From contig DVOS01000036.1 in the NCBI GenBank assembly GCA_018713435.1, positions 1 to 64,000 of the forward strand: a stretch of 64,000 bases of DNA, given 5' to 3'. Within the stretch, counting starts at the first letter, position 1; each line of letters opens with the position of its first letter. Source of the DNA: Candidatus Merdiplasma excrementigallinarum (lineage in GTDB: Bacteria; Bacillota; Clostridia; Lachnospirales; Lachnospiraceae). Made by a program: the position numbers and the translations under genes. Shown here one piece after another: positions 2,379 through 28,035 of the stretch. Under the pieces are notes generated by a model. That model saw nothing but the letters and a program-made list of their open reading frames with translations, searched no databases and was not told where the DNA came from.

Positions 2379-4114
2379 ATATCAAAATCAACGGAGTCCC
2401 TGTGCAGGTCAAAGAGGGCACTACCATCCTGAAAGCGGCAGCCGGCGCCAACATGCCGGTTCCCAGTCTCTGCTACCTGGAAGGCATCAACGAGATCGGC
2501 GCCTGCCGGGTCTGCGTGGTGGAAATCAAGGGCGTCAACCGGCTGGTTCCCGCCTGCAACAATGTGGTGGAAGAGGGCATGGAGATCGAGACAAACTCTC
2601 CCAGAGTCCGGGAAGCCCGCCGGACCAATGTGGAGCTGCTGCTCTCCCAGCATGACTGCAACTGCCCTTCCTGCGTGCGCAGCGGCAACTGTTCCCTGCA
2701 GAAGGTCGCCAACGACCTGGGTATTTTCGCCACCGAGTATGAAAAGGACGTACCCAAGAAAAGCTGGCCGGTGGACTTTCCTCTAATCCGGGACGCTTCC
2801 AGATGTATTAAATGTATGCGGTGTATTCAGATCTGCGACAAGGTGCAGGATCTGCATGTATGGGATATTGCCAGGACCGGCTCCTGGGCTACCGTGGGCG
2901 TCTCCCACAATCTGCAGATTACCCAGGCGGACTGTTCCCTCTGCGGCCAGTGCATCACCCACTGTCCCACCGGCGCTCTCAGAGAGCGGGACGACACCCT
3001 GAAGCTGACTTCCATGAAGGGCGCCTTCGCGGATCCCGGTAAGGTGGCGGTGGTGCAGGTAGCCCCCGCCGTGCGCTCCGCCTGGGGCGAGCAGCTTGGC
3101 CTGACCCGGGAGGAAGCGACCCCCGAGCGTCTGGTGGCCGCCCTGAAAGCCCTGGGATTCGACTATGTGTTTGACACGGACTTTGGCGCGGACCTTACCA
3201 TTATGGAGGAGGCCAGCGAGTTCCTGGAGCGCCTGACCCACAAGGATGAATATACCTTCCCCATGTTTACGTCCTGCTGTCCCGGCTGGGTACGGTTCCT
3301 GAAATCCCAGTATCCGGAGATGGTGGACCAGCTGTCCACCGCCAAATCCCCCCACCAGATGCAGGGAGCCGTAACCAAAACCTATTTTGCCGAAAAGATG
3401 GGGCTGGATCCGGACAGCATTTACAATGTGTCCATCATGCCCTGCGTGGCAAAGAAAAGCGAGATCGACATTCCCAACATCAATGACGCGGGCCATGGCA
3501 AGGATGTGGACCTGGTGCTTACCACCCGGGAGATTGTGCGGATGATCCGGGCCGATCACCTGGATGTGAAAAAGCTGCAGGAGGTTCCCTTTGATTCTCC
3601 TCTGGGCACCGGAACCGGCGCGGGCGTCATCTTCGGCGCCACCGGCGGCGTGATGGAGGCGGCCCTGCGGACCTGCTACTACATGGTGGTGGGGAAAAAT
3701 CCCTATCCGGATGCCTTCTATATGGTACGGGGACTGGACGGCTGGAAGGAAGCCTGCCTGGATATCCAGGGCACAACCGTCCATGTGGCGGTGGTCAGCG
3801 GCCTTGGCAATACCAGAAAGCTGATCAAAGCCCTGAAGCGGGGCGAGGTCTCCTACGATTTCGTGGAGGTCATGGCCTGTCCCGGCGGCTGCGCCGGCGG
3901 AGGCGGTCAGCCCATCCATGACGGCGAAGAGCTGGCCGGTATCCGGGGCGAAAATCTGTATTTCCTGGACCGCACCAGCGATCTGCGGTTCTCCCATGAG
4001 AACCCGGATGTGCAGGCTCTCTATAAGGAAATGCTGGACGCGCCGCTCTCCCACAAGGCCCATGAGCTGCTTCACACCGATCACCACGGCTGGAAGATGC
4101 CGAATGAAGCGTAA
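2372..4114 (+). CDS. hydA: [FeFe]-hydrogenase catalytic subunit
   Basis: This 580-aa enzyme reversibly reduces protons to H2. In order it carries an N-terminal [2Fe-2S] domain (CYLEGINEIGACRVC), a His-Cys cluster motif (HDCNCPSCVRSGNC), two 4Fe-4S ferredoxin motifs (CIKCMRCIQIC and CSLCGQCITHCPTG), and all three H-cluster signatures: TSCCPGW, MPCVAKK and MACPGGCAGGGGQP. The length fits the clostridial monomeric (CpI-like) class. The ORF-track start at 2273 is too early. ATG 2372 follows AAAGGAGG and begins MVNIKINGVPV, the usual N terminus. It overlaps the upstream oxidoreductase gene and shares its ZTP-riboswitch promoter. No maturase (HydE/F/G) genes are in the window. All ligand cysteines appear present. 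Confidence 0.95.
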   Translation: MVNIKINGVPVQVKEGTTILKAAAGANMPVPSLCYLEGINEIGACRVCVVEIKGVNRLVPACNNVVEEGMEIETNSPRVREARRTNVELLLSQHDCNCPSCVRSGNCSLQKVANDLGIFATEYEKDVPKKSWPVDFPLIRDASRCIKCMRCIQICDKVQDLHVWDIARTGSWATVGVSHNLQITQADCSLCGQCITHCPTGALRERDDTLKLTSMKGAFADPGKVAVVQVAPAVRSAWGEQLGLTREEATPERLVAALKALGFDYVFDTDFGADLTIMEEASEFLERLTHKDEYTFPMFTSCCPGWVRFLKSQYPEMVDQLSTAKSPHQMQGAVTKTYFAEKMGLDPDSIYNVSIMPCVAKKSEIDIPNINDAGHGKDVDLVLTTREIVRMIRADHLDVKKLQEVPFDSPLGTGTGAGVIFGATGGVMEAALRTCYYMVVGKNPYPDAFYMVRGLDGWKEACLDIQGTTVHVAVVSGLGNTRKLIKALKRGEVSYDFVEVMACPGGCAGGGGQPIHDGEELAGIRGENLYFLDRTSDLRFSHENPDVQALYKEMLDAPLSHKAHELLHTDHHGWKMPNEA

Positions 4115-4133
4115 AGCATACTGCGAAAAAGTC

Positions 4134-4163
4134 GCTTCCTGTACACCTGGATGTGCAGGAAGC
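4134..4163 (+). repeat. Inverted-repeat hairpin sharing a 16-bp core with the 6.4-kb element
   Basis: GCTTCCTGTACA and TGTGCAGGAAGC form a 12-bp stem just after the hydrogenase stop. The segment CTGTACACCTGGATGT (4139-4154) is the exact reverse complement of 6464-6479 inside the large palindrome downstream of hsp20. Confidence 0.5.
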
Positions 4164-4205
4164 ATATGTACTCTTTTTTGTAGCTTTCCCTTACATTTAT
4201 GGTAG

Positions 4206-4259
4206 AACGAGGGTGCCGCTTTATCATGAATTTCATGATTTTGCAGCACCCTCGTTTTT
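4206..4259 (+). terminator. Intrinsic terminator of the hydrogenase operon (recurring terminator family)
   Basis: AACGAGGGTGC pairs with GCACCCTCGTT and an inner ATCATGAATTTCATGAT palindrome extends the stem; TTTTT follows. Nearly the same sequence recurs at 21743-21790, with related forms at 26471 and 57934. Confidence 0.85.
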
Positions 4260-4362
4260 GTGACATTTAAATTTGCTGATAGGGATAGATTTTTGATAAA
4301 TGCTTGACTGTGAACCTTGTTTATAGCTTATATTGAAATAAAATAAAGTTGCCTGAGGGGGG

Positions 4363-5208
4363 ATGTATAACATGACTATAAAAGACGCAGAAAAGCGAAC
4401 AGGTTTATCCCGTTCTAATATCCGTTTTTATGAAAAGGAAAAACTCATTGAGCCTTCGAGAAATGAAAGTAACGGTTATAGAGATTATTCTGAGAATGAT
4501 GTAGAAAATATAAAGAAGATTGCATATCTGCGTACATTGGGAATTTCTATTGAAGATATACGAAATATTATATCCAAAAAAGCAACCTTGCAGGAAATAC
4601 TTGAGAAGCAGAATGAAGTATTAAAAAGTCAGATTACTGATTTGAGTAAGGCGAAACTCATATGCGAAAAAATGCTGGATGAAGAAAGTATTAGTTATGA
4701 AAAATTGCAAATAGAACAGTATGTAACAGATTTGCATGACTATTGGAAAGATAATCAAACTGTTTTCAAGCTGGATTCCGTCAGCTTTTTGTATATATGG
4801 GGAAGTATGCTTACCTGGACAACGATTGCCGCACTATGCCTGCTTATTGGGGCTTTGTCTTATCCTGAGCTGCCGGCAGAAATTCCGGTACAATGGAGTA
4901 AAGGAGCAGCGACATCCCTGGTTAATAAAAACTGGATTTTTATTTGTCCGGTTATATGTATTATAATCCGTTATTTATTAAGACCTTTTATCTATGCGAA
5001 ATTGCAGATGAACCATTATTATGGAGAAATTATAACAGAGTATTTGACAAATTATATGTGTTTTATTGTGCTGTCAGTAGAAATTTTCTCCATACTTTTT
5101 ACTTTCGGAGCAGTAAAAAGTGTTGTTGTACTGTTATTTGTGAACACGGCAGTTTTTATTGGGCTGTTAGCAGTTGGCCTGGTAAAAATGGATTTGAGAG
5201 AAAAATAA
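4363..5208 (+). CDS. MerR-family regulator with C-terminal membrane domain
   Basis: The 281-aa protein starts with a MerR winged-helix DNA-binding domain (about 4-75; SRSNIRFYEKEKLIEP and NGYRDYSENDVENI) and a coiled coil (about 75-125). At least four hydrophobic segments follow, with a DUF1648-like PELPAEIPVQWSKG motif between the first two. This architecture, a one-component regulator held in the membrane, occurs in Firmicutes and is thought to link envelope signals to transcription. No effector-binding cysteines are evident. The start could be 4363 or the ATG at 4372, which is better spaced from GAGGGGGG. The gene is visibly AT-richer than its neighbours, suggesting acquisition. A small frameshifted membrane ORF with a strong ribosome-binding site follows by 23 bp. 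Confidence 0.8.
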   Translation: MYNMTIKDAEKRTGLSRSNIRFYEKEKLIEPSRNESNGYRDYSENDVENIKKIAYLRTLGISIEDIRNIISKKATLQEILEKQNEVLKSQITDLSKAKLICEKMLDEESISYEKLQIEQYVTDLHDYWKDNQTVFKLDSVSFLYIWGSMLTWTTIAALCLLIGALSYPELPAEIPVQWSKGAATSLVNKNWIFICPVICIIIRYLLRPFIYAKLQMNHYYGEIITEYLTNYMCFIVLSVEIFSILFTFGAVKSVVVLLFVNTAVFIGLLAVGLVKMDLREK

Positions 5209-5231
5209 ATTTTATTGTCGGAGGTGATTTT

Positions 5232-5306
5232 ATGCGATGGTTTGAATTGATTTTTTTACACTTACCTCGTGTGGGTGGTGGATTTTTGGAATTGCTTTTT
5301 TGGTAG
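5232..5306 (+). pseudogene. Small membrane-protein ORF apparently frameshifted at a T7 run
   Basis: An excellent ribosome-binding site (CGGAGGTGA) sits 4-5 nt before ATG 5232. As written, translation gives 24 residues (MRWFELIFLHLP...). If the seven-T run held one more T, the frame would continue through WWIFGIAFLVGLILITYAQV to a stop near 5365, giving a 40-45-residue single-span membrane peptide. A deletion in the T run, programmed slippage or a sequencing error are all possible. It probably partners the upstream membrane MerR regulator. Confidence 0.45.
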
Positions 5307-5407
5307 GATTGATTCTTATAACGTATGCACAAGTAAAATATAATCATGGACTGATTTGTGTATAATAAAAATATACAAAACATCCCCCGGAGAAAAGAGG
5401 GCTTCGT

Positions 5408-5629
5408 ATGATTATTACCGCAGCGGAACTTAAAACCAATCTCGAAAAATATCTGGAAATGGCAATGTCTCAGGATATTTTCATTACCAAGAACGGAAAA
5501 ATCATTGCCCGTTTCACAAGCCCCGCTGTCAACAAACTGGCGCTTCTGGACGATCTGGTTGGGATCGCTCCGAAAGATCAGGCAATGGACGAAAACACCC
5601 TGCGAGAGGAACGGCTGTCCAGACAATGA
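5408..5629 (+). CDS. Phd/YefM-family antitoxin
   Basis: The 73-aa protein begins MIITAAELKTNLEKYLEMA and continues with a VxITKNGKxIAR-type core, the fold used by Phd/YefM-type antitoxins that bind DNA and neutralise a RelE, Doc or PIN toxin. Its stop overlaps the next ATG (ATGA), the usual antitoxin-toxin coupling. The partner here is a truncated PIN toxin, so the antitoxin is probably orphaned. It is preceded by an AAAGAGGG-like ribosome-binding site. Confidence 0.8.
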   Translation: MIITAAELKTNLEKYLEMAMSQDIFITKNGKIIARFTSPAVNKLALLDDLVGIAPKDQAMDENTLREERLSRQ

Positions 5630-5715
5630 GAATACTGATTGATACCAATGTTATTCTGGATATTGTCCGCAAACGGGAACCATTCTTCGCGGATTCCTAC
5701 TTTTTTATAAAATAA
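5626..5715 (+). pseudogene. Truncated PIN-domain (VapC-like) toxin
   Basis: Translation gives MRILIDTNVILDIVRKREPF and stops after 29 residues. This is the first beta strand and first catalytic Asp of a PIN-domain RNase (LIDTNVILD). A full toxin is about 130-140 residues, and the remaining acidic residues are gone. The coding remnant runs straight into the CIRCE/promoter of hsp20, which implies a deletion joined the two. Confidence 0.75.
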
Positions 5716-5742
5716 TTAGCACTCACCTCTTGACAGTGCTAA
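5716..5742 (+). promoter_or_regulatory. CIRCE operator (HrcA binding site)
   Basis: TTAGCACTC-N9-CAGTGCTAA matches the CIRCE consensus TTAGCACTC-N9-GAGTGCTAA with one mismatch. It overlaps the -35 box of the hsp20 promoter, as expected for HrcA repression. Confidence 0.9.
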
Positions 5743-5758
5743 CAAATCGTGCTATAGT
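5730..5758 (+). promoter_or_regulatory. Sigma-A promoter of hsp20
   Basis: Perfect TTGACA (5730-5735), 17-bp spacer, TATAGT (5753-5758). The -35 box lies inside the CIRCE operator. Confidence 0.85.
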
Positions 5759-5873
5759 ACTGTCAGAACAAAGGAAGAGATAAAAAGTGAGCGCATAAAC
5801 CGTTGTTCCTTTTATCTTATTCCTTATAAATATCGCATACAGTATCAGTTATATAAATGAGGAGGAATGATTT

Positions 5874-6329
5874 ATGTTAATGCCCAGTATTTTTGGAGAG
5901 GATTTATTTGATGACCTGATGGATTTTCCGTTTGAGAGAGACAGCCGCCGCAGAGCCGCTGCCGGTTCTGCCTATGGCAAAGCTGACCGGAATCTGATGC
6001 GGACCGATATCCGGGAGACGGACAATTCCTTTGAACTTGACATCGACCTGCCCGGCTATAAAAAAGAAGATGTTACCGCCCAGCTGGAAAACGGCTACCT
6101 GACCATCAGCGCTTCCAGAAGTGCCAGTCAGGACGAAAAGGATAAAGAAGGCAAATATATCCGCCGGGAGCGTTTTACCGGCCACTGCTCCAGACGCTTT
6201 TATGTAGGAGAGGCCATCACCCAGCAGGATATCCGGGCCAGATTTGAAAACGGGATCCTGAAGCTGTCCGTCCCGAAGAAGGACGCAAAAGAAATCGAAC
6301 AGAGCAAATATATTTCCATCGAAGGGTAA
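5874..6329 (+). CDS. Small heat shock protein, Hsp20/alpha-crystallin family
   Basis: This 151-aa ATP-independent holdase chaperone binds unfolding proteins in the cytoplasm. The N-terminal arm has MPSIFGEDLFDDLMDFPF. The alpha-crystallin domain spans about residues 40-140 (DIRETDNSFELDIDLPGYKK and the family motif ENGILKLSVPK). ATG 5874 follows GAGGAGGAA. The gene stands alone behind a CIRCE-controlled promoter, so it should be induced by heat through HrcA. Confidence 0.93.
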   Translation: MLMPSIFGEDLFDDLMDFPFERDSRRRAAAGSAYGKADRNLMRTDIRETDNSFELDIDLPGYKKEDVTAQLENGYLTISASRSASQDEKDKEGKYIRRERFTGHCSRRFYVGEAITQQDIRARFENGILKLSVPKKDAKEIEQSKYISIEG

Positions 6330-6427
6330 AACCCTTCCGGAAATTTTATCGGATAGAAGCAGTTTTATGTAATGTTTCACCCTCTCTCCTCCCTCTGCAG
6401 GCGCAGAGTTTTCGATAGATAATATAA

Positions 6428-6544
6428 GGGAATGTTACAAAAGAGAGTACATTTGTTTCCGGTACATCCAGGTGTACAGATGTCGATAGGACAAAGTGAA
6501 CACCGGACGTACCGGAAGCAATGAAATCTTTTGGTAACATTCCC
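6428..6544. repeat. Large nested palindrome downstream of hsp20
   Basis: The outer arms GGGAATGTTAC and GTAACATTCCC flank inner arms TTTCCGGTAC / GTACCGGAAG and a further GGTGT / ACACC pair, giving a folded element of about 117 bp. TCTTTTT follows on the plus side, so it can end hsp20 transcription. The core ACATCCAGGTGTACAG recurs inverted at 4139-4154. The size and nested structure exceed an ordinary terminator and suggest an intergenic repeat element. Confidence 0.55.
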
Positions 6545-6582
6545 TCTTTTTATTATGCGCTTTAACGGTTTCCCCAGGTTAT

Positions 6583-6723
6583 CTACAGGTTCAGCCTGGC
6601 GGCGGCTGCCTTCCAGATCCCTTTGAGCAGGCCGCTGCGCCTTTTATAAAGCCTCAGCAGGCTCTTTAAGCGGCGGATCCGCTTTGCGGTCTTCCCCGCC
6701 GTTCTTCTTTTCTTTATTCTCAA
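6583..6723 (-). CDS. Candidate small, very basic protein coupled to the MotB-like gene
   Basis: A 46-aa ORF starts at TTG overlapping the stop of the MotB-like gene (TTGA) with GGAGAAG a few bases upstream. It translates to (M)RIKKRRTAGKTAKRIRRLK..., with about a third Arg/Lys and a hydrophobic C terminus. It is absent from the ORF track because of the rare start. The tight overlap argues for translation, but no family is recognised. If real, it could be a cytoplasmic or membrane-surface partner of the motor pair. Confidence 0.3.
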   Translation of the reverse strand: MRIKKRRTAGKTAKRIRRLKSLLRLYKRRSGLLKGIWKAAAARLNL

Positions 6724-7754
6724 GCCGCTTCTCCATCTCCTTCCTGCACGGCCCCGCTCTCCTCAATCATCTCCCGGAGAGAGGAAATCATCTCTTCATC
6801 CTTCAGCCGGAACTTGATCTCCACCCGGCGGGAGGCGTCCATATCCACTTCCCCGTTTTCATCCAGGATAGGATTGCTCTCCGACCGGCCGTTTACCGTC
6901 AGTTTCTCAGAAAGGACGCTCTGCCCTTCCGCGTCCATAAAGCTTCCCATGGTGTTCAGCAGATACTCCGCCACCGCGAAGGCCCGGCGCTGGGACAGAT
7001 CCAGGTTGGTGATATAGTCTCCCGTGGTGTCCGTATAGCCGTCGATAATTACCTCCGCCACATAGGGCTCGTATTCCTGGCTCAGCAGCACGCTGCAGTA
7101 AACCGGCAGCACCTGGGAGAGGATCTGGGATCCTTCGTCCTTGAGCACGCTCTCATTGTAGTCGAAAAGCACGCTGGAGTTCAGCACCATGGCTCCCGTC
7201 TGGCCGTCAATCTCCACCGTCATCTGGTTCTCCTGAAATTCCTGGTTCAGGGAGGCGATCAGGTCTGCCTTCACCCCGATAATCTGGTCAATTTTTTCCT
7301 GCTGGGAGGCCATCAGGCTGGTCTGTGCATTTAACGTCTCCTGCTGGGAGGCTACCAGAGCGGTCTGCTCGTCCAGGGCGGCCTGGCTGGCCTCCAGATC
7401 TTCCTCCTTCTGGGCCAGCTGGGCGGTCTGTTCCGCCAGCTGGGCCGTCTGCTCCTCCAGCTGAAGCTTCAGCTGGGTCAGGGACAGTTCCTGGGCGGCC
7501 AGCTGATCCGACTGCTCGTCCAGCTGGGCGGACTGCTCATCCAGCTGGGTCTGGCTTTTATTCAGTTCATTCTGGGTCTGAAGCTGTTTGGCCTGCTCGC
7601 TCAGCTTCTCCGCGTAGTTTCGTTCCGCCTGCATCAGGCACACGGCCATGATCAGCACAAACAGCAGCAGAAGGCCCGACATCATGTCCGAGTAGGATCT
7701 CCAGACATTATGGGGCGTCCCCTCATCTGTTTTTCTTCTGGTTCCTCTTTTCAT
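6720..7754 (-). CDS. MotB/OmpA-type ion-motor stator protein, ZorB-like
   Basis: The 344-aa protein has a basic cytoplasmic N terminus, then one membrane span carrying an Asp (SYSDMMSGLLLLFVLIMAV), equivalent to the proton-binding Asp of MotB. A long Gln/Glu-rich coiled coil follows (about 45-160; repeats such as LDEQSAQLDEQSDQLAAQ). The C terminus is an OmpA-like peptidoglycan-binding domain (about 175-330) with GYTDTTGDY and NLDLSQRRA, which hold the Asp/Arg diaminopimelate-binding residues. The second ATG (7754) is preferred because GGGGGA directly abuts the first one. It lies 18 bp after the MotA-like gene. There are no flagellar genes nearby. MotB proteins lack such a long extracellular coil, so the domain order is closest to ZorB-type units. 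The plausible role is a peptidoglycan-anchored proton-driven motor subunit. Confidence 0.8.
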   Translation of the reverse strand: MKRGTRRKTDEGTPHNVWRSYSDMMSGLLLLFVLIMAVCLMQAERNYAEKLSEQAKQLQTQNELNKSQTQLDEQSAQLDEQSDQLAAQELSLTQLKLQLEEQTAQLAEQTAQLAQKEEDLEASQAALDEQTALVASQQETLNAQTSLMASQQEKIDQIIGVKADLIASLNQEFQENQMTVEIDGQTGAMVLNSSVLFDYNESVLKDEGSQILSQVLPVYCSVLLSQEYEPYVAEVIIDGYTDTTGDYITNLDLSQRRAFAVAEYLLNTMGSFMDAEGQSVLSEKLTVNGRSESNPILDENGEVDMDASRRVEIKFRLKDEEMISSLREMIEESGAVQEGDGEAA

Positions 7755-7772
7755 GCGCATTCCCCCGTCTTA

Positions 7773-9161
7773 TCAGTGAAAAAGCGAGCGAAACGAGCGT
7801 TTCTTTCCCCTGCCCTGCTCTTCCATCATTCCGATCAGCTGGTCAAGCCGCCGGTTCAGCTGCTCCATCTGGCCGAAGGCATGATCCTGGGACAGCTCCT
7901 GCAGCTGCCGCTCCACCTCCTCCAGAGTCCGCACGCTCCGGTCGTTCAGCACGGCCATCCGTTCCATCACCTGGGCCATATAGTCTACAAATTCCCGGAG
8001 ATTTTCCTGCTGGGTCCGCATGGCGTCCAGGCACTCCCGCTGGCTCTCGCCTGCCGTTTTCATAGCCCTGGAAACGGCCGCTTCCCCGGCCAGAAAATCA
8101 TCCTGGAACTGCCGGCGCACCTCCATCAGTTCCGCCTGGAACTGCGCCTGATCCTCCTGGGTATGAGACAGGAAGCCCACATAATTTTCCTGTACCCGGT
8201 TGGTCTCTTCCAGAAGAGTCCGCATCCTGGAAAACTCCCGGGTCAGCTCGCTCTTCATGGTATCCATTACATTGGCGGATACCTGCTCCAGCAGATCCTT
8301 CTGATTTAATGTAATGGTCTGGATAAACTGATCCACCGTCTGGTTCAGATGCTCCATGGAAGGCTCCACATAGTGCTCAAATCCGGCCGTGATCTGCTGT
8401 CCCAGCTCTTTGGACTGCTCCCTGGAGAGACGGATCTGCTCCTGCTGGTTGGTCAGCACATGGTTCATGGCCGTTGTGTCCGTAGGCGGCACCGCGCACA
8501 GATAGTATTTATCCAGAAAATTGTCCAGGCTTTCCGCCAGCCGGGAGAACAGCCCCTTCTGCCAGTAGGAAAAGGCCATGGACAGGGTCAGGCCGTAAAT
8601 CGAGGTGACAAAGGCCACCTTGATGCCGTTGATCAGAGATGAAACGGAAGAAGTCATGGCCTCATAGCTTACCGGGTCAAATCCCCGCAGGCCCCACACC
8701 AGGCCCAGGAAGGTACCCAGAATGCCCAGGCTGGTAAGAATATCCGGCACCATCTCAATCAGCCGACGGTGAATATAGTTGTTGATCTCATATTCTCCGA
8801 TGTAATCCCCGATATCGCAGGGACTGTCCGCCTTGCGCAGATAGGCCAGGTATTCCTGATATTTCCGGTCCAGATACTCCACCTGGAAAATCTGGCTGCC
8901 CACAGCCGTCACCTCTTCCAGATCCCCTTTCTCCTGGTAAATCCCGGTCAGTTTCCGGGCGGCCCCATCCAGCCCCCGGATCGTCTGCTGCGTCCTGCTA
9001 AAGCCAAACAGGCCGGAAAAAGCCAGGATCACCAGCATCACCGCCAGCACGGCCAGGTTGAAGGCCATGGAAAACGCGTCCGTATCCATGGTCAGAACCG
9101 TAATAAAAATACACACTGCCGCCGCGATCACGCCCACGGCGCCATTCGATAATTTCCGCAT
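7773..9161 (-). CDS. MotA/TolQ/ExbB-type proton channel with long coiled-coil tail, ZorA-like
   Basis: The 462-aa protein has two N-terminal spans (about 7-55), a cytoplasmic stretch, then the ExbB/MotA core spans EMVPDILTSLGILGTFLGLV and KVAFVTSIYGLTLSMAFSYW (about 135-205). After the core comes an alpha-helical, Gln/Glu-rich tail of roughly 240 residues. TolQ/ExbB proteins do not have such a tail; ZorA of the Zorya defence system and related five-to-two motors do. AAGGAGG precedes ATG 9161. The MotB/OmpA partner follows immediately. ZorC, ZorD and ZorE effectors are not visible in the window, so this is an orphan ZorAB-like motor or another surface motor, not a demonstrable defence system. 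Confidence 0.8.
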   Translation of the reverse strand: MRKLSNGAVGVIAAAVCIFITVLTMDTDAFSMAFNLAVLAVMLVILAFSGLFGFSRTQQTIRGLDGAARKLTGIYQEKGDLEEVTAVGSQIFQVEYLDRKYQEYLAYLRKADSPCDIGDYIGEYEINNYIHRRLIEMVPDILTSLGILGTFLGLVWGLRGFDPVSYEAMTSSVSSLINGIKVAFVTSIYGLTLSMAFSYWQKGLFSRLAESLDNFLDKYYLCAVPPTDTTAMNHVLTNQQEQIRLSREQSKELGQQITAGFEHYVEPSMEHLNQTVDQFIQTITLNQKDLLEQVSANVMDTMKSELTREFSRMRTLLEETNRVQENYVGFLSHTQEDQAQFQAELMEVRRQFQDDFLAGEAAVSRAMKTAGESQRECLDAMRTQQENLREFVDYMAQVMERMAVLNDRSVRTLEEVERQLQELSQDHAFGQMEQLNRRLDQLIGMMEEQGRGKKRSFRSLFH

Positions 9162-9288
9162 ATGTCCGTCCTCCTTTTTCTCATTATATCGTCAGAAAAT
9201 ATCCTTTTCAACAAATATTTTCTTAGTAAATTCTTTATAAATCTGCTATAATCATTCTGGAAATACTGACTGACGAGGAGGAATATTC

Positions 9289-9735
9289 ATGAGCAGAATT
9301 GATGAAGTAAGAAAAGCCATGCAGGACGCCATGAAGGCAAAAGATAAAGACCGCAAGGACGCCCTGTCCATGCTCCTGGCGGCCCTGAAAAACAAGGCCA
9401 TCGACAAGCGGGCCGACCTGACCCCGGAGGAAGAAAACGAGGTAGTTCTCAAGGAAATCAAACAGACGAAGGAAACCCTGGAGCTGACCCCCGCTGACCG
9501 GACAGACATCATAGAGGAATGTAAATTCCGCATCCGCGTGCTGGAGGAGTTCGCGCCCCATATGATGGACGAGGCGGAAATCCGGCAGGTCATCACCGCC
9601 GTTCTGCAGGAGCTGTCCATTGACGCCCCCACCGGAAAAGACAAGGGACGCATCATGAAGGTGCTGATGCCCAGAATCAAGGGCCAGGCAGACGGAAAAC
9701 TGGTAAACGAAGTGCTGGCTTCCATGATGAACTGA
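9289..9735 (+). CDS. yqeY: GatB/YqeY-domain protein
   Basis: The 148-aa protein matches YqeY: all-helical, starting MSRIDEVRKAMQDAMKAKDK, with PEEENEVVLKEIKQTKETLE and a C-terminal KGRIMKVLMPRIKGQADGK(L)VNE segment. YqeY shares a domain with the GatB subunit of the Asp/Glu-tRNA amidotransferase and is presumed to bind tRNA, but its cellular role is not settled. ATG 9289 follows GAGGAGGAA. A TATAAT at 9247-9252 with a weak -35 about 18 bp upstream is the likely promoter. The gene is divergent from the motor pair and monocistronic, ending at a bidirectional terminator. Confidence 0.9.
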   Translation: MSRIDEVRKAMQDAMKAKDKDRKDALSMLLAALKNKAIDKRADLTPEEENEVVLKEIKQTKETLELTPADRTDIIEECKFRIRVLEEFAPHMMDEAEIRQVITAVLQELSIDAPTGKDKGRIMKVLMPRIKGQADGKLVNEVLASMMN

Positions 9736-9800: not shown

Positions 9801-12449
9801 TTATTTTTTCCGGATCTTCACTTTCTTTTTCCCGCACCATCCGCTGTAGTACTTAACCTTATCTACCGTCTTGTAAGTGCGGACTCTCACGTAATAGGTT
9901 TTTCCCTTTTTCAGATTCTTAATAACCCGGCTGGTCTTTCCCTTTACCGTCACCGTTTTCGCGTTTTTGAAGCTGCTGCTGGTGGAATACTGGATCTGGT
10001 ATCCGGTCACCCCGGAAATCTTTTTCCAGTTTACCCCCATACGGCTCTTTGTGTTGGAAACCACTCTGGTGAGGGCGGTCTTTTTCGGCACGATGTTAAA
10101 ATACAGCTTCTTTTTCCCGGTATAGGAGCCCTTTCCCTTTATGGTAATAACCGCTTTTCCGATATTTTTATTCTTGGAATAGGTAATCGTATAATCTTTG
10201 TTCTTCTTCAGCTTTAAGGAACCGTTTTTCACGGTTACATTGGGCTTCTGGGCTTTTCCATTGTAGGTTTTGTCGGAAATCCTGCTGTACTTCAGGGAAG
10301 CCACGGATTGCTTCACGATTTTAAAGGAAAGGGTTCTGGTGCCCCGGTATTTTCCCTTTCCGGTGATGGTCACCTGGGCGGTGCCCACCTTTTTGTTGTT
10401 CCGGTAGGCAAGGGTATAGTCCGTTCCCTGCCGAAGCGTTCTGCCGCCGAAGCTTACCTTCACGGACGGTTTTATGGCCTTCCCGGTATAGCCCTGTTTG
10501 GCGATGGAAGAGACGGAGGCCTTTGTGATGGTATCCCCGATGCCGCACCGGCTGCACAGTCCCTGTACATAGGTGTGGCCGTAAGCCGCCCGGGCCGTCT
10601 GATAGCTGGCTTTGCACCGGCTGCAGGTATAGGTCAGCTTTCCCGCCGAAGTGCAGGTGGCGCTGTCCGCGGTCTGTACGTAGTGGTGACCCAGGGCCGG
10701 GACGGTATCTCCTGTATAGGTGTCTGCGCACCGGCTGCAGGCATATACCGTATAGCCCCCCGCCGTACAGGCGGCAGCCGCAGTGCTCTGCACCCGATAA
10801 TCATGTCCCAGGGCCGAAACGGCATCTCCCGTATAGGTGTCCCCACACCGGCTGCAGGCATATACCGTATACCCGCCCGCCGTACAGGTGGCGGCCACCG
10901 TGCTCTGCACCTGATAATCGTGGCTCAGCGCCGGCACCGTCTCTTTGTAGGAAGCGCCGCAGGCGCTGCACTGGTATAAGGTATAGCCTTCCGTGGTGCA
11001 GGCAGGCGCCGCGGTTTCCACCGCCTCATAGATATGGGCCACCGTGTCGCAGTAACTGATCCCCTGGGTTTCCAGGTAAGGATAGGTAAAAATGGTGGAA
11101 CCGCCCGGGTCTGATCCGCCGAAGTTTCCGGAGGATATCCGGTTGCCAAACGTATCGCCCGCCAGAAAATACTGGTAGGAAATAGTATCGACTTTATCGT
11201 CCCAGGTGGCATCCACCAGGTACCACCTGCCGCCGATCTGTACCCCGTTCCACATATGGCCTTCCCGGACATTATTCTGCACCACAGTGCCTCCGATCAG
11301 CACACAGGGGATCCCCAGCTGGTCACAGAGCACCTTAAATCCTTTCGCGTACCCCTCGCAGACCACACCGCTTCCCACCGTGCCGGGCAGAATCGCTCCC
11401 GCAGAGCAGAAGATCCGGTAATCGCCGGTCTGCTGATAGGATTCGTAGGCCGCCGTATCGTAGTACAGAGTCTGGCAGAGGTAATCGTGGATTCCTCTCA
11501 CCAGCTCCACATCGTCGCATCTTCCGTCTCCGTTATCGTCCGCCTCCTGCGCGATCCGGGCCGCCACCTGAGGCAGCGCCGCGTCATAGGCTCCCATCAG
11601 GCTTTCCGCACCGGAAAACGCCACGCCGGGCGTATACACAAGCTTTGCCAGATAACCGGTCCACTCTCCGGTACTCTCATCGTATTTTTTCCCCGGGGCA
11701 TAAGAATAGCTGCCGCCCCGGAACCAGAAAATCTCCGGGTGGTCGTACAGAAAGGCGTCCACCGAGGACTGCATGGAAAATCTGACCTGATCCTGAAAAT
11801 CCAGGTACTCCTGGGCAGTCCGGTCAATCACCAGCGTACCGTTTTCCTGTTCCACCACCGATGCCTCAAATGTAACGGGCGACGTCTCGGCGGTGTATTC
11901 TACCGTCATGCTGCCGGATGCCCGGCCGGTCACATAGTAGCTGACTCTCTCATCGTAAAATTTTCTGGATACAGAATCCAGCTGGTTGCCGAAAGCTCCG
12001 TCGTAAGAGGCAAGGCTGAAGGTCGTAATCCCTGCCGGAGCCGAATCCGGAACTGCCGTGGCATCCTGCAGGACCACGGTTTCCTCCGGCTCTTCCCCCG
12101 GGATGATCTGGGGCGCTTCCGGATCTTCAATCAGACCGTCCCCGTTCCCCTGCTCCCGGCTTTCCGGCTCTGTCTCTTCCTCCAGAAGCCCCTCTGTTTC
12201 CGTTTCCGGCGCTGCAGGCTGCTCCTGCTCCGCTATTTCCGTCACAGGCTCCGCTGGCTCAGGCTGCGCTCCTGTGGGCGCCTCCTCTTCCAGCAGCAGT
12301 TCTTCCGGCTCTGAAAGGAGCTCCTCTGTTTGCTCTGCCTCGGCGGCAAACACCGGCTCGCTCAGGGGGAACAGGCCCGCCTGCACAAAAAGCAGGAGAG
12401 ACAGCAGGAACAGCAAGGTTCGTTTATATCCCATAGGTTCTTTTTTCAT
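9801..12449 (-). CDS. Secreted transglutaminase-like protein with CxxC repeats and Ig/Fn3-type C terminus
   Basis: The 882-aa exported protein starts at ATG 12449, 5 nt after GAGGTGG; the track start is a GTG overlapping that site. A signal peptide ends near FPLSEPVFA. A long Glu/Pro linker (about 35-130) precedes a transglutaminase/cysteine-protease-like core (about 215-440) with a likely Cys-His-Asp triad in GVVCEGYAKG, VREGHMWNG and VDATWDD. Four CxxC modules of about 35-40 residues follow (YxCSxCG...), which look zinc- or disulfide-stabilised. Two MBG/Ig-like repeats (YTGKAIKPSVKVSF, YNGKAQKPNVTVKN) and an Fn3-like domain (GVTGYQIQYSTSSSFKNAKT) end it. There is no sorting motif; the very basic C terminus may bind the wall. 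It probably cross-links or cleaves surface or extracellular proteins. Confidence 0.8.
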   Translation of the reverse strand: MKKEPMGYKRTLLFLLSLLLFVQAGLFPLSEPVFAAEAEQTEELLSEPEELLLEEEAPTGAQPEPAEPVTEIAEQEQPAAPETETEGLLEEETEPESREQGNGDGLIEDPEAPQIIPGEEPEETVVLQDATAVPDSAPAGITTFSLASYDGAFGNQLDSVSRKFYDERVSYYVTGRASGSMTVEYTAETSPVTFEASVVEQENGTLVIDRTAQEYLDFQDQVRFSMQSSVDAFLYDHPEIFWFRGGSYSYAPGKKYDESTGEWTGYLAKLVYTPGVAFSGAESLMGAYDAALPQVAARIAQEADDNGDGRCDDVELVRGIHDYLCQTLYYDTAAYESYQQTGDYRIFCSAGAILPGTVGSGVVCEGYAKGFKVLCDQLGIPCVLIGGTVVQNNVREGHMWNGVQIGGRWYLVDATWDDKVDTISYQYFLAGDTFGNRISSGNFGGSDPGGSTIFTYPYLETQGISYCDTVAHIYEAVETAAPACTTEGYTLYQCSACGASYKETVPALSHDYQVQSTVAATCTAGGYTVYACSRCGDTYTGDAVSALGHDYRVQSTAAAACTAGGYTVYACSRCADTYTGDTVPALGHHYVQTADSATCTSAGKLTYTCSRCKASYQTARAAYGHTYVQGLCSRCGIGDTITKASVSSIAKQGYTGKAIKPSVKVSFGGRTLRQGTDYTLAYRNNKKVGTAQVTITGKGKYRGTRTLSFKIVKQSVASLKYSRISDKTYNGKAQKPNVTVKNGSLKLKKNKDYTITYSKNKNIGKAVITIKGKGSYTGKKKLYFNIVPKKTALTRVVSNTKSRMGVNWKKISGVTGYQIQYSTSSSFKNAKTVTVKGKTSRVIKNLKKGKTYYVRVRTYKTVDKVKYYSGWCGKKKVKIRKK

Positions 12450-12496
12450 AGACTCCACCTCTGTACTCAGTTTACCTGATTTCTCCGGTTTTGCAA

Positions 12497-13603: not shown

Positions 13604-15772
13604 TTATGACCAGTAGCGAACTACCTTGATCGGCGTCTGGTAATTATAGGCCGAGATCTTGATGCCGCCCTGGGGATAGGGCTGTGAATTGCTGGCGTGA
13701 ACGATCTGGCCATTGCCGATGTAAATGCCCACATGGCTGGCGTAGTTGGAAGAACCGTAGAATACCAGGTCGCCGGGCAGCATACTGCTGGTGCTCACCG
13801 TCACGGCTTTCTTGTAGCCGGCTTTTATCAGTGCGCTGCTGGGTCCCTTCATCTGATCATTGGCCACCCGCAGCAGCTTGATCCCATAGTTGGCAAATAC
13901 GGTATACACAAATCCGGAGCAGTCCGCTCCGTTGGTCAGGCTGGTGCCGCCGTACACATAGGGATTTCCCACGTATTTGATGGCGAACTTGGCCAGCTTG
14001 GAACCGGTGGTATTTCCAGACACGTTGATGGTTTTTTCCGCCGTCACCACGCCATTTTTGTTGATGGTGTACTCCTTGTTGCTCACCGCCAGCGTCAGGT
14101 TAGCCGCCATAATGCCGGTGGGGTAGAAATAATACTTCTTGTCTCCAATCACCTGCAGACCGGTGCAAGCCGCTCCGTCTGAACCGAAATAATACTTGTT
14201 TCCGCTGACCGTCTGCCAGCCCTTCAGCATATTTCCCTTGGAGTCGTAGCAGTACTTCTTACCTCCGATGGTCTGGATGCCGGCCTGCAGGGTCAAATTC
14301 GTCCGGGCTCCGTTCGAGCCCACATAGTACTGACCCACCCACTTGTTCACGGCCATCTTGCCGTTGGCCTCAAAATAGTAATACTTCTTATTGATCTTTA
14401 CCCACTTGTTCTTGGCTGCCGCGCCGTCTTTTTCAAAATAGTAGGTGGCGCCGCCGATCTTCTTCTTGGTTTTCTTCACCATGCGGCCGTTGGACGTATT
14501 AAAATAATACAGCTTGCCGCCGATGGTTTTCAGCCCTTTGTAAAGCTTTGCGTCCTTACCGGCGTAATACTTGTAGGATCCCTTGGTGAACCACTTGTTG
14601 ACCTTCAGGGCATTGTTCTTGGTGCTGGCATAGTACTGGTCATTCCCATACTTGATCCAGCCTGTCATCAGCGCGCCCTTCTTGGTCCGGCTGAAATAAT
14701 AATATTTGCTGCCAATCTTGGTCACGCCCATACAGCGGGCTCCGTCGGCCCCCACATAATATTTCTTGTTGCTCAGCCACTTGTTGGTCTGCAGAACGCC
14801 GTTCTTGCCAAGATAATAATATTTGCTGCCGATCTTCTTCCATCCGGTGCTCTTGTTTCCGGTGCTCCGGTTAAACCAGTATTTTTTGCCCCCGATGGTC
14901 TGCCAGCCCTTCGCCATGGCGCCGCTGGCCGTCAGATACTTTTTGCCCTTCCAGGTGTTGGTCTGCACCACACCCTTCTTATCGGCATAATACTTGTTGT
15001 TTCCTACCTTGAACCAGCCGGTTTTCACCGCGCCGCTGCCCGGCGTCAGATAATACTTCTTGCCGGAGAGCGTCAGCCAGCCGTACACTTTATTGCTGTT
15101 CCGGTCATAGTAGCAGCGGACGCCGTTGTTGGTCACCCAGCCCACGTTGTTGATCACGCCGGTAAAGCGGCCGTCGGCTCCTACCCATTTGCCCTCGATC
15201 CACTGATTGACGGCCATGGTGCCGTTTTCCTGGAAATAGTACTGCCCCACCCATTTGTCCTGGGCCAGCACGCCGGTAGACTTATCCGCATAGTAAACCT
15301 GTCCGTTGATCCGCAGATAGCCGTGCTGCCGCACGCCGCTCTCATTCAGATAGTAGGACTTGCCGTCAATGGTAATCAGGCCGGTCTGTCTTACGCCCTT
15401 GGAATCAAAATAATAGCGCAGGGAAGTTTTCCCGGATTTAATGGTCTGCCAGCCGGTCCTGCGGGCGCCGTCACTTCCCAGATAGTAAACCTTATCCTTG
15501 ATGGTCTGCCAGCCGGTGCGCATCTTTCCGTCCGTGCCGAAGTAATAATATTTCTTATTCACCTTGGCCCAGCCGGTCTTCATGATGCCCTTCTTGGAAA
15601 AATAGTATTTGGCTCCCTTGATGGTATGCCACCCCGTATAATAGCCCGGAGATTTATTGGTGGTGTACATCATCCCCTGGGAAGTGTTCTTCCAGGCGGC
15701 CTGAGCCGTCACTCCCATAAGCGCGCACAGCAGGAAACAGAGCAGCGACCACGCGGCTAATTTTTTCTTCAT
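13604..15772 (-). CDS. Secreted NlpC/P60 cell-wall endopeptidase with YG-type wall-binding repeats
   Basis: The 722-aa exported wall hydrolase has a signal peptide (MKKKLAAWSLLCFLLCALMG, cleavage near AQA). About 25 tandem repeats of roughly 20 residues follow (types TGWQTIKDKVYYLGSDGARR and NKWVGQYYFQENGTM), the Trp/Tyr-rich choline- or glucan-binding-like family that attaches proteins to wall polymers. An NlpC/P60 domain occupies about residues 595-722, with the catalytic Cys in NGADCSGFVY and the His in SNYASHVGIYIG followed by GQIVHASN. NlpC/P60 enzymes cut peptidoglycan stem peptides. The start follows AGGGGAAGGGA. The gene is monocistronic. Mature function is probably wall turnover or daughter-cell separation. 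Confidence 0.9.
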   Translation of the reverse strand: MKKKLAAWSLLCFLLCALMGVTAQAAWKNTSQGMMYTTNKSPGYYTGWHTIKGAKYYFSKKGIMKTGWAKVNKKYYYFGTDGKMRTGWQTIKDKVYYLGSDGARRTGWQTIKSGKTSLRYYFDSKGVRQTGLITIDGKSYYLNESGVRQHGYLRINGQVYYADKSTGVLAQDKWVGQYYFQENGTMAVNQWIEGKWVGADGRFTGVINNVGWVTNNGVRCYYDRNSNKVYGWLTLSGKKYYLTPGSGAVKTGWFKVGNNKYYADKKGVVQTNTWKGKKYLTASGAMAKGWQTIGGKKYWFNRSTGNKSTGWKKIGSKYYYLGKNGVLQTNKWLSNKKYYVGADGARCMGVTKIGSKYYYFSRTKKGALMTGWIKYGNDQYYASTKNNALKVNKWFTKGSYKYYAGKDAKLYKGLKTIGGKLYYFNTSNGRMVKKTKKKIGGATYYFEKDGAAAKNKWVKINKKYYYFEANGKMAVNKWVGQYYVGSNGARTNLTLQAGIQTIGGKKYCYDSKGNMLKGWQTVSGNKYYFGSDGAACTGLQVIGDKKYYFYPTGIMAANLTLAVSNKEYTINKNGVVTAEKTINVSGNTTGSKLAKFAIKYVGNPYVYGGTSLTNGADCSGFVYTVFANYGIKLLRVANDQMKGPSSALIKAGYKKAVTVSTSSMLPGDLVFYGSSNYASHVGIYIGNGQIVHASNSQPYPQGGIKISAYNYQTPIKVVRYWS

Positions 15773-26470: not shown

Positions 26471-26500
26471 GAGGGTGTTGCAATTTGCAGCACCCTCTGT
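26471..26500 (+). terminator. Intercistronic attenuator hairpin
   Basis: GAGGGTGTTGC pairs with GCAGCACCCTC between the binding-protein and ATPase genes, with only a short T-containing tail. It probably reduces read-through so that binding protein exceeds transporter. The stem matches the recurring terminator family without its inner palindrome. Confidence 0.55.
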
Positions 26501-26517
26501 TAGAAAGGAGAACCAAC

Positions 26518-28035
26518 GTGTCCGATGTTATTGTAAAAATGCAGGATATTTCCAAATCATTCGGCGGTATTAAAGCCCTGGATCATGTTCAGATCGAACT
26601 GCGCAGAGGCGAAGTTCATGCGCTTATGGGCGAAAATGGAGCCGGCAAATCTACGCTTATGAAAATTATGACCGGTGTCTATACAAAGGACAGCGGCACC
26701 ATGTATCTCTATAATGAGCAGACAAAAGAACTGGAAGAAATTGAAATGAAATCTCCCCTCATGGCTCAAAAGCATGGATTAAGCATGGTGTTCCAGGAAT
26801 TAAATCTTCTGGAGAATATGAATATAGCAGAAAATATTTTTATTGGCAGAGAGCCCGGTATAAACGGCGTTTTGAACCGTGCCGCATTAAACCGGAAAGC
26901 AAAAGAAGAACTCAAAAAAGTAAATCTCGATATTTCTCCGGAAACGATGGTTGACAGTTTAAGCTGCGGTCAGAAACAGTGTGTTGAAATTGCCAAAGCC
27001 CTGTCTTTTCAGGCCCGGGTTGTGGTATTTGATGAACCTACTGCCAGTCTCTCGGAAAAAGAATCTCAGGTTTTATTTGATATCATACGTGATTTAAAAA
27101 GCAAAGGAGTATGTATCGTCTATATTTCTCATCGTATGGAAGAAATATTTGACATATCGGATCGTATTACTGTTTTCAGAAACGGCACCTTTATTGATAC
27201 AGTTGAAACAAAAAATGTTTCCGAACCGGATCTGATACAAATGATGATTGGCCATGAGATTCAGGCTGATGCGGGAAAAACTTCCGATAACCATGTTAAA
27301 AAAAATGTCGTAATGGAAGTAAAAAATGTAAAAGTTTTTCCCAACAGTCATCCTGTACATTTTAAGCTGTATGAAAATGAAATCCTCGGCTTTTTCGGGC
27401 TGGTCGGTGCAGGCCGTACCGAATTGGCCCGTATCATATTTGGCGTTGATCCTGTTGGGGAAGGTGAAATCTTCATACAGGGAAAGCAAGTGAAAATCTC
27501 CTGTCCGCAGGATGCTATAAAAAATGGCATTGGTCTTGTTCCAGAGGATCGCAAAAACCTCGGTCTGATTTTGGGAATGAGCGTGAAAGACAATATGCTT
27601 ATTTCAAAATTGCAGCAGATTAAAGGAGCATTTCTGAAAAATTCTCAACTAAAGCAGATTACCGGCACATATATTCAGGATCTTGGAATTTCTTTAAGAA
27701 ACGAAACACAGGAAGTCAAAGAATTAAGCGGTGGAAATCAGCAAAAAGTTGTAATTGCCAAATGGCTGGCTATGACCCCCAATATCCTGATTATGGACGA
27801 GCCCACCAGGGGAATCGATGTCGGAGCCAAAAACGAAATTTATGCGCTGATGCGAAGGCTGGTTAATCAGGGAAAAAGCATTATTATGATTTCATCAGAA
27901 ATGGCAGAAGTAATGAAAATAAGCGATCGCATTATTGTCATGCATGAAGGAAGTATCGGCGGAACTCTTTCTGCCGATGAAATCACTAAAAACAATATTA
28001 TGCAAGCTGCATTCGGAGGAAATAAAGATGAATAA
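26518..28035 (+). CDS. Sugar ABC transporter ATP-binding protein, RbsA-like
   Basis: The 505-aa protein has two tandem ABC ATPase halves. The first has Walker A GENGAGKST, signature LSCGQKQCVEIAKAL and Walker B VVVFDEPTASL. The second has GLVGAGRTELAR in place of a canonical Walker A, LSGGNQQKV and ILIMDEPTRGID, the usual asymmetry of RbsA/MglA. It energises uptake through the permease encoded next. GTG 26518 (MSDVIVKMQDISKSFGG) follows AAAGGAG; the track start is within the attenuator. Its end overlaps the permease start by 8 bp. Confidence 0.95.
   Translation: MSDVIVKMQDISKSFGGIKALDHVQIELRRGEVHALMGENGAGKSTLMKIMTGVYTKDSGTMYLYNEQTKELEEIEMKSPLMAQKHGLSMVFQELNLLENMNIAENIFIGREPGINGVLNRAALNRKAKEELKKVNLDISPETMVDSLSCGQKQCVEIAKALSFQARVVVFDEPTASLSEKESQVLFDIIRDLKSKGVCIVYISHRMEEIFDISDRITVFRNGTFIDTVETKNVSEPDLIQMMIGHEIQADAGKTSDNHVKKNVVMEVKNVKVFPNSHPVHFKLYENEILGFFGLVGAGRTELARIIFGVDPVGEGEIFIQGKQVKISCPQDAIKNGIGLVPEDRKNLGLILGMSVKDNMLISKLQQIKGAFLKNSQLKQITGTYIQDLGISLRNETQEVKELSGGNQQKVVIAKWLAMTPNILIMDEPTRGIDVGAKNEIYALMRRLVNQGKSIIMISSEMAEVMKISDRIIVMHEGSIGGTLSADEITKNNIMQAAFGGNKDE

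Follow-up and report, generated by a model that had tools for sequence, protein, structure and literature searches.

What does a ZorAB-type motor do at a locus that carries none of the Zorya effector genes? This question is raised by a gene pair of Candidatus Merdiplasma excrementigallinarum (Lachnospiraceae), found near the start of a 64,000-nucleotide stretch (positions 1 to 64,000 of contig DVOS01000036.1, assembly GCA_018713435.1), of which the full length is referred to here as the window. A sequence-only reading of the window had described the locus as an orphan ZorAB-like motor with an added basic small protein, being either a minimal defence unit or a different peptidoglycan-anchored motor. 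The analysis described here agrees best with the second of these alternatives: with a probability of about 0.6, the locus encodes a non-flagellar, non-Zorya, wall-anchored ion motor of certain Lachnospiraceae, presumably composed of five A and two B subunits, for which a role in the envelope is likelier than a role in defence. The features of the locus, all on the minus strand, are listed below; loci, genomes and contigs used for comparison are numbered with the prefixes L, G and C, respectively.

7773..9161, minus strand: A subunit (motA), ZorA/MotA/ExbB-like, 462 amino acids (aa), with four helices of the transmembrane (TM) type, a cytoplasmic domain (residues ~77-131) and a coiled-coil tail (216-462)
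8712..8714, minus strand: codon of Thr150, TM3 ion-path residue of the A subunit, aligning with ZorA T147
8601..8603, minus strand: codon of Ser187, TM4 ion-path residue of the A subunit, aligning with ZorA S184
7776..7805, minus strand: basic-aromatic tail tip KKRSFRSLFH of the A subunit, a conserved C-terminal motif with the approximate consensus [KR][KR][GS][FL]F[KR]
6720..7760, minus strand: B subunit (motB), ZorB/MotB-like, 346 aa, with a TM helix containing Asp25, a long coiled coil and an OmpA domain
7686..7688, minus strand: codon of Asp25, the ion-carrying TM aspartate of the B subunit, aligning with ZorB D26
7230..7628, minus strand: extracellular coiled coil, B residues 45-177, ~20 nm long if it is a straight helix, within the predicted helix 20-177
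6804..7208, minus strand: OmpA peptidoglycan-binding domain, B residues ~185-319
6583..6723, minus strand: basic protein of 46 aa, whose TTG start overlaps the motB stop codon (TTGA)
9183..9211, minus strand: probable sigma-A promoter TTGAAA-17-TATAAT, 22 nucleotides before the start codon of the A subunit

The A and B genes are separated by 12 bases, and the ZorA/ZorB-like layout with an Asp-containing span, as proposed from the sequence, is borne out by the profile and structure comparisons. The A subunit matches the Pfam MotA_ExbB family (24.1 bits against a cut-off of 22.9, E=3.3e-5) and the B subunit matches Pfam OmpA (E=2.5e-13). ZorA and ZorB outrank ExbB, TolQ and MotA as the best matches of the pair, whether searched for in PADLOC (ZorA1, E=4.4e-19; ZorB1, E=1.9e-70), in the sequences of the PDB or among its folds, where ZorA is the closest solved fold for the A subunit (E=2.5e-7, probability 1.00) and ZorB (8vvi_A) is at the top of the list for the B subunit. 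In the predicted models, the A subunit has four TM-type helices and the B subunit has one helix from residue 20 to residue 177 (predicted local distance difference test score >90 over much of its length), including the single TM segment with Asp25, followed by the OmpA fold. Asp25 of B and Thr150 and Ser187 of A are present without exception in the aligned proteins, orphan and Zorya alike (the reference residues ZorB D26 and ZorA T147/S184 are numbered as in the plasmid-borne Zorya I system of L089), and from the TM aspartate, the Thr/Ser ring and the adjacent genes the pair is read as a complete ZorAB/MotAB-type set. The OmpA residues D244, N252, L255 and R259 are also invariant in all aligned B subunits; together with the predicted OmpA-like fold, this suggests that the B subunit binds peptidoglycan. 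When the ZorA calcium-site residues E86 and E89 are considered, E86 alone is retained. An AGGAGG sequence precedes the ATG of the A gene. The promoter candidate has 11 of the 12 consensus positions, and its assignment rests on its location, because about two promoter-like matches are expected by chance in the region.

The tail of the A subunit, estimated at about 240 residues from the sequence, comprises 247 residues (216-462), which are modelled with modest confidence as almost wholly helical. It ends in the basic-aromatic motif, which is found in 17 of the 27 orphan A subunits, in one of 10 Zorya proteins and in one other protein among the 414 scanned; this motif might serve for docking or for binding to the membrane. 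It also occurs, for example as KKGFFR, in divergent orphan motors, and the single non-motor match in the loci is a DnaJ-like protein of L068 (18654-19820), ending in KKKKRGFFK.

The most distinctive feature of the B subunit is its coiled coil. In 22 orphan B subunits, the TM aspartate is 143-192 residues away from the first OmpA strand; in seven ZorB proteins this distance is 69-87 residues, with no overlap between these ranges, and the short linker is also kept in the ZorB of Zorya systems of the same phylum. Within subclades the lengths differ by steps of seven residues (174/181/188, 143/150, 144/151, 157/164/171 and 185/192), as expected of a coiled coil under heptad constraint. The long extracellular coiled coil that was noticed as unusual is therefore present, as the predicted helix 20-177, and it is a trait of the whole clade, shared by the 22 orphans, and not an oddity of this locus. 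Cryosections of Gram-positive cells have shown a periplasm of 22 nm in Bacillus subtilis and of 16 nm in Staphylococcus aureus (PMC8141598), and the modelled coil could be long enough to cross this inner wall zone. Even at rest, such a motor would have the length to reach the wall, which Zorya may do only once the gap has closed.

By the tests applied, the pair is not a Zorya system. ZorC (PF15611, EH_Signature) was found in none of the 12 genus genomes searched, several of which are incomplete; the same search found ZorC adjoining ZorAB in five other genomes of the order or phylum, and in the control locus L071 both ZorC (E=7.7e-15) and ZorD (E=0) lie directly downstream of ZorAB. The sequence-only statement that ZorC, ZorD and ZorE are not visible in the neighbourhood holds for the ten neighbours scanned in the window, among which there is no ZorD, ZorE, ZorF/ZorG or other clear defence gene either; no ZorE (HNH) or ZorF/ZorG was apparent on inspection of the related loci, the rest of the genome not being searched. 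The scores with the NCBIfam Zorya models are all far under the curated cut-offs (54 bits against 250 for the best ZorA model, 78 against 400 for ZorB1, and 51.5 against 100 for the model nearest to its cut-off). In the tree of A subunits, the ZorC-bearing ZorA proteins group together, separate from the genus (97/98; the divergent L034 falls inside this clade). When a ZorA2 fragment is added, the A subunits of the genus and of L058-L064 form one clade of 19 rows (100/99); this reference is a partial sequence from a PDB alignment, and the length of its branch prevents a placement of type II. Grouping the window's kin with Zorya is rejected by the approximately unbiased test (p-AU 7e-5), and these sequence trees place the orphans in a clade outside Zorya I. 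An extra β-sheet in the cytoplasmic domain of the A subunit is said to mark Zorya (PMC12505986). The predicted monomer of the A subunit has no strand of three or more residues, so that this sheet is not seen in the model.

The distribution of the pair points in the same direction. It is present in 12 of 13 genomes of the genus, including that of the window (11 of 12 others), the lone genome without it being a fragmented draft, and it is apparently inherited vertically in the genus. FliG (PF01706) is found in none of 12 genus genomes, the control genomes being positive, and flagellar rotation is thereby ruled out. No copies of the motor were found on viral contigs, and the search of phage records and plasmids gave only distant matches, namely partial ones in two phage records that carry no annotation and another on a Nostoc plasmid; the neighbourhoods are ordinary chromosomal settings. 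At the window locus these neighbours are:

9801..12458, minus strand: secreted transglutaminase-core/FN3 protein
13604..15772, minus strand: NlpC/P60 wall hydrolase with choline-binding repeats
9289-9735, other strand: yqeY, upstream neighbour of the A gene
5874-6329: hsp20 gene, downstream of the operon

In the type-A loci, and also in L059 of another genus, the motor stands beside this transglutaminase/FN3 protein and the NlpC/P60 choline-binding hydrolase, and members of the NlpC/P60 family are repeatedly found close to the motor in related loci. There are two to nine NlpC/P60 genes per genome, yet one of them is at most ~8 kb from the motor in six genomes (G000, G004, G010, G012, G007 and G105), which span two genera and both subtypes of the genus. 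Other wall genes at the motor are an L,D-carboxypeptidase gene before motA (L029), an NlpC/P60 gene (L026) and a gene for a CAP/choline-binding protein that abuts motB (L061). Other loci adjoin housekeeping genes; holB, gyrBA, pheST and the ATP synthase operon are examples recognised by eye from the sequence.

Several observations weigh against a wall-anchored motor with an envelope role. The motor is present in 15 of 298 sampled genera of the family, in a patchy manner, and is therefore not general housekeeping. No wall gene adjoins the orphan loci L030, L031, L060 and L062-L064. In L021 (5139-9275) and L023 (11368-15476), motB is directly followed by genes that, judged by eye, resemble sbcD-sbcC, an arrangement that would suit a role connected with DNA. 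The B subunit scores 235 bits on the PADLOC model of the Firmicutes-type ZorB (PDLC00609), nearly as much as true ZorB (271-291 bits), which leaves some room for a recent Zorya-like function. Finally, the gap at the Gram-positive wall is disputed (Beeby 2013, as cited in PMC8141598).

The envelope role is nevertheless preferred over defence because ZorAB alone is stated to be insufficient for defence, because of the wall-gene neighbours and because of the genus-wide presence. By analogy with the ZorAB structures (PMC11890865), from which the A5B2 assembly, the ion-driven rotation and the rod formed by the tails are taken over, it is envisaged that in the membrane five A subunits are arranged around a pair of B helices, and that ions passing Asp25 of B and the Thr150/Ser187 ring of A would make A turn around B. 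The B subunits would be held to the peptidoglycan by the OmpA domain at the end of a dimeric coiled coil of ~20 nm, and the tails of A would bundle into a cytoplasmic rod with the conserved basic-aromatic tip. Rotation or tension could then alter the rod, with an output via the tail-tip motif and, where present, the basic protein. Most probably the motor senses or works on the connection between membrane and wall, in wall growth or integrity.

The small basic protein deserves separate consideration. Its open reading frame (ORF) has 39% lysine and arginine (K/R) and a net charge of +18, and is preceded by GGAG seven nucleotides upstream of the TTG start. It is coupled to motB, as was noticed from the sequence, although the description of it as an unusual addition does not hold, since such an ORF is not unique to the window locus. 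In L024, too, motB is followed by a clearly homologous ORF (alignment z=7.5), and K/R-rich ORFs after motB are found in the window, L024, L027-L030, L058 and L059. The small proteins of L027/L028/L029/L030/L058 are homologous to one another, with z values of 4-19 for most pairs, and a profile of the family matches only beside motB (at E<1e-3), in 7 of 16 genomes. It is rather unlikely that the ORF is unrelated to the motor, being a chance ORF or a gene that is merely downstream. Such an explanation would fit with its absence from six of the 14 closest loci (L021, L022, L023, L025, L026 and L031), with the weaker similarity between the window/L024 proteins and the L027-L030/L058 group, and with a dN/dS of ~0.45 in L027-L029, which indicates only moderate constraint. 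It does not account for the exclusive occurrence of the profile matches beside motB, for the similarity between the window and L024 proteins, which none of 300 shuffles equalled, or for the enrichment of K/R-rich ORFs 3' of motB (seven of 14 related loci, which are not phylogenetically independent, compared with eight of 154 other genes). The sequence comparisons thus describe a real small-protein family, not universal in these loci, and its member is a probable cytoplasmic partner of the motor in the loci having it. Its charge is opposite to that of the A tail (-13), and the cationic protein perhaps binds the acidic tail; when loci with and without the small protein are compared, there is no clear difference in the charge of the A tail.

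A minimal Zorya-type defence, in which ZorAB senses an envelope disturbance induced by phage and the tail, in place of ZorC/D/E, calls in either a nuclease of the host (SbcCD, for example) or the basic protein as a DNA binder, is considered unlikely. Its attraction is that the nearest relatives are ZorA and ZorB, that the +18 protein could bind nucleic acid, and that sbcD-sbcC follow motB in L021 and L023; these are, however, the only two loci with sbcCD next to the motor. ZorAB alone has been stated to be insufficient for defence (PMC8565338), and Zorya I no longer protected once any one of its components was deleted, which for T7 was true of Zorya II as well (PMC11890865); this published need for all components argues against a two-gene system. 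The proposal of a minimal defence unit also finds no support in the near-universal presence of the pair in the genus, in its ordinary chromosomal settings among housekeeping and wall genes, in the lack of ZorC in the genus or in the ten scanned neighbours, which include no clear defence gene. The homologues are largely grouped with housekeeping and envelope genes, a grouping that the sequence-only reading had itself named as speaking against defence.

That the pair powers surface movement or energises an exported structure, in the manner of AglRQS or GldLM, is still less probable. Non-flagellar relatives of the 5:2 type drive gliding and secretion (PMC10341847, PMC11890865, PMC12505986), and the lack of FliG in the genus leaves room for such a use, but in the examined loci, genes for adhesins, secretion or motility are not recurrent neighbours of the motor. 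That the pair is a remnant of Zorya I which has lost its effector genes is hardly credible despite its homology to Firmicutes ZorB and the same two-gene order, as every motor residue is intact, the B subunit is strongly constrained (dN ~0.08 and dS ~0.8 in L027-L029), the orphan clade lies outside Zorya I, and the long coil common to the orphans, with the tail tip or small protein of many of them, is missing from nearly all Zorya systems.

The proposed wall-anchored motor can further be characterised by comparison with known systems. Zorya I ZorAB (Escherichia coli, 8QYD; Shewanella, 8VVN; Firmicutes, L071-L076) is the best match in sequence and fold, sharing the order of A and B, the four-TM A subunit with a coiled-coil tail, the TM aspartate and OmpA domain of B and the Thr/Ser ion-path residues. 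The orphan locus differs in having no ZorC/ZorD, a B linker twice as long, a shorter A tail (247-263 aa by two measures, compared with 347-533 aa in Zorya I), a predicted A cytoplasmic domain without β-strands and, often, the small basic protein and tail-tip motif, and in forming a separate clade. In Zorya II (Sulfuricurvum, 8VVI) the tail is of comparable length (8VVI residues 100-378), and ZorB-II is the top structural match of B, whereas here no ZorE is seen next door and the N-terminal part of A is longer. The flagellar stators MotAB/PomAB (the FIT of PMC12505986) have the ion-path residues and the OmpA-type peptidoglycan-binding B subunit in common with the pair, which differs from them in its tail and coil extensions, in a sequence and fold much nearer to ZorA and in the lack of FliG in the genus. 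The B subunit is also covered over residues 50-317 (coil and OmpA domain) by the NCBIfam entry NF006543 (PRK09039.1-2), named 'peptidoglycan-binding protein' (E=1.3e-15); this match has 58 bits against a cut-off of 305, and the annotation of the entry carries no tested function. The Lachnospiraceae host has a single membrane. ExbBD/TolQR and AglRQS (the GIT of PMC12505986) are likewise non-flagellar ion motors of the envelope, whose B subunits have no OmpA domain and which belong to double-membrane cells, unlike the OmpA domain and long coil seen here. In the literature that was searched for orphan or Gram-positive ZorAB motors there is no description of such a motor; what is new is this uncharacterised, coil-extended, effector-less relative of ZorAB, the superfamily itself being known.

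Most non-flagellar ion motors whose job is known come from double-membrane bacteria or are the phage-defence motor Zorya. A conserved effector-less cousin of ZorAB with an arm that could reach the wall, found in Gram-positive gut anaerobes, suggests that in these bacteria motors of this type serve the envelope. More tentatively, and with the balance somewhat against it, single-membrane gut bacteria might have a dedicated, constitutively wall-anchored ion motor as a counterpart of Tol/Ton at the gap between membrane and peptidoglycan, with an output via the rod and a cationic microprotein, Zorya being a cousin derived from a common wall-sensing motor. The orphan motor offers a comparison for how Zorya arose from an envelope motor. 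In addition, defence finders that accept two-gene Zorya matches may mislabel orphan loci as phage defence.

Some further features of the window and of the compared loci are recorded here. Directly 3' of the operon there is a palindromic element (6425-6550), with a related copy at 4139-4193; BLAST finds 90 matches to it within this draft genome, and it is therefore a dispersed repeat resembling a miniature inverted-repeat transposable element or a repetitive extragenic palindrome. The stretch 4001-6000 is A+T-rich (38% GC, compared with 50-63% around it), has a MerR regulator and a Phd/YefM-type antitoxin-like ORF, and was probably acquired. On the minus strand, a 5194-aa ORF occupies 35096-50680 and is immediately preceded by a 942-aa ORF (50681-53509). 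A defence island was looked for near the window and none was found; a 516-aa ORF (26485-28035), 17 kb from the motor, matches PADLOC mad3 (E=9e-43) and several generic ATPase models, and could encode a defence-type ATPase. In L034 (111-6269; G054:C55), a ZorAB-like pair with an A subunit of 364 aa is followed by ORFs of 334 aa and 1009 aa without a PADLOC match, possibly forming a new Zorya-like operon. A further type of ZorAB-like pair occurs in Lachnospiraceae at L035 (9334-11095; G012:C52) and L069 (6859-10168), and may be another motor system; the A subunit of L035 is tail-less (259 aa), and its gene lies near a gene for a PP2C-like phosphatase and large ORFs of the secreted type.

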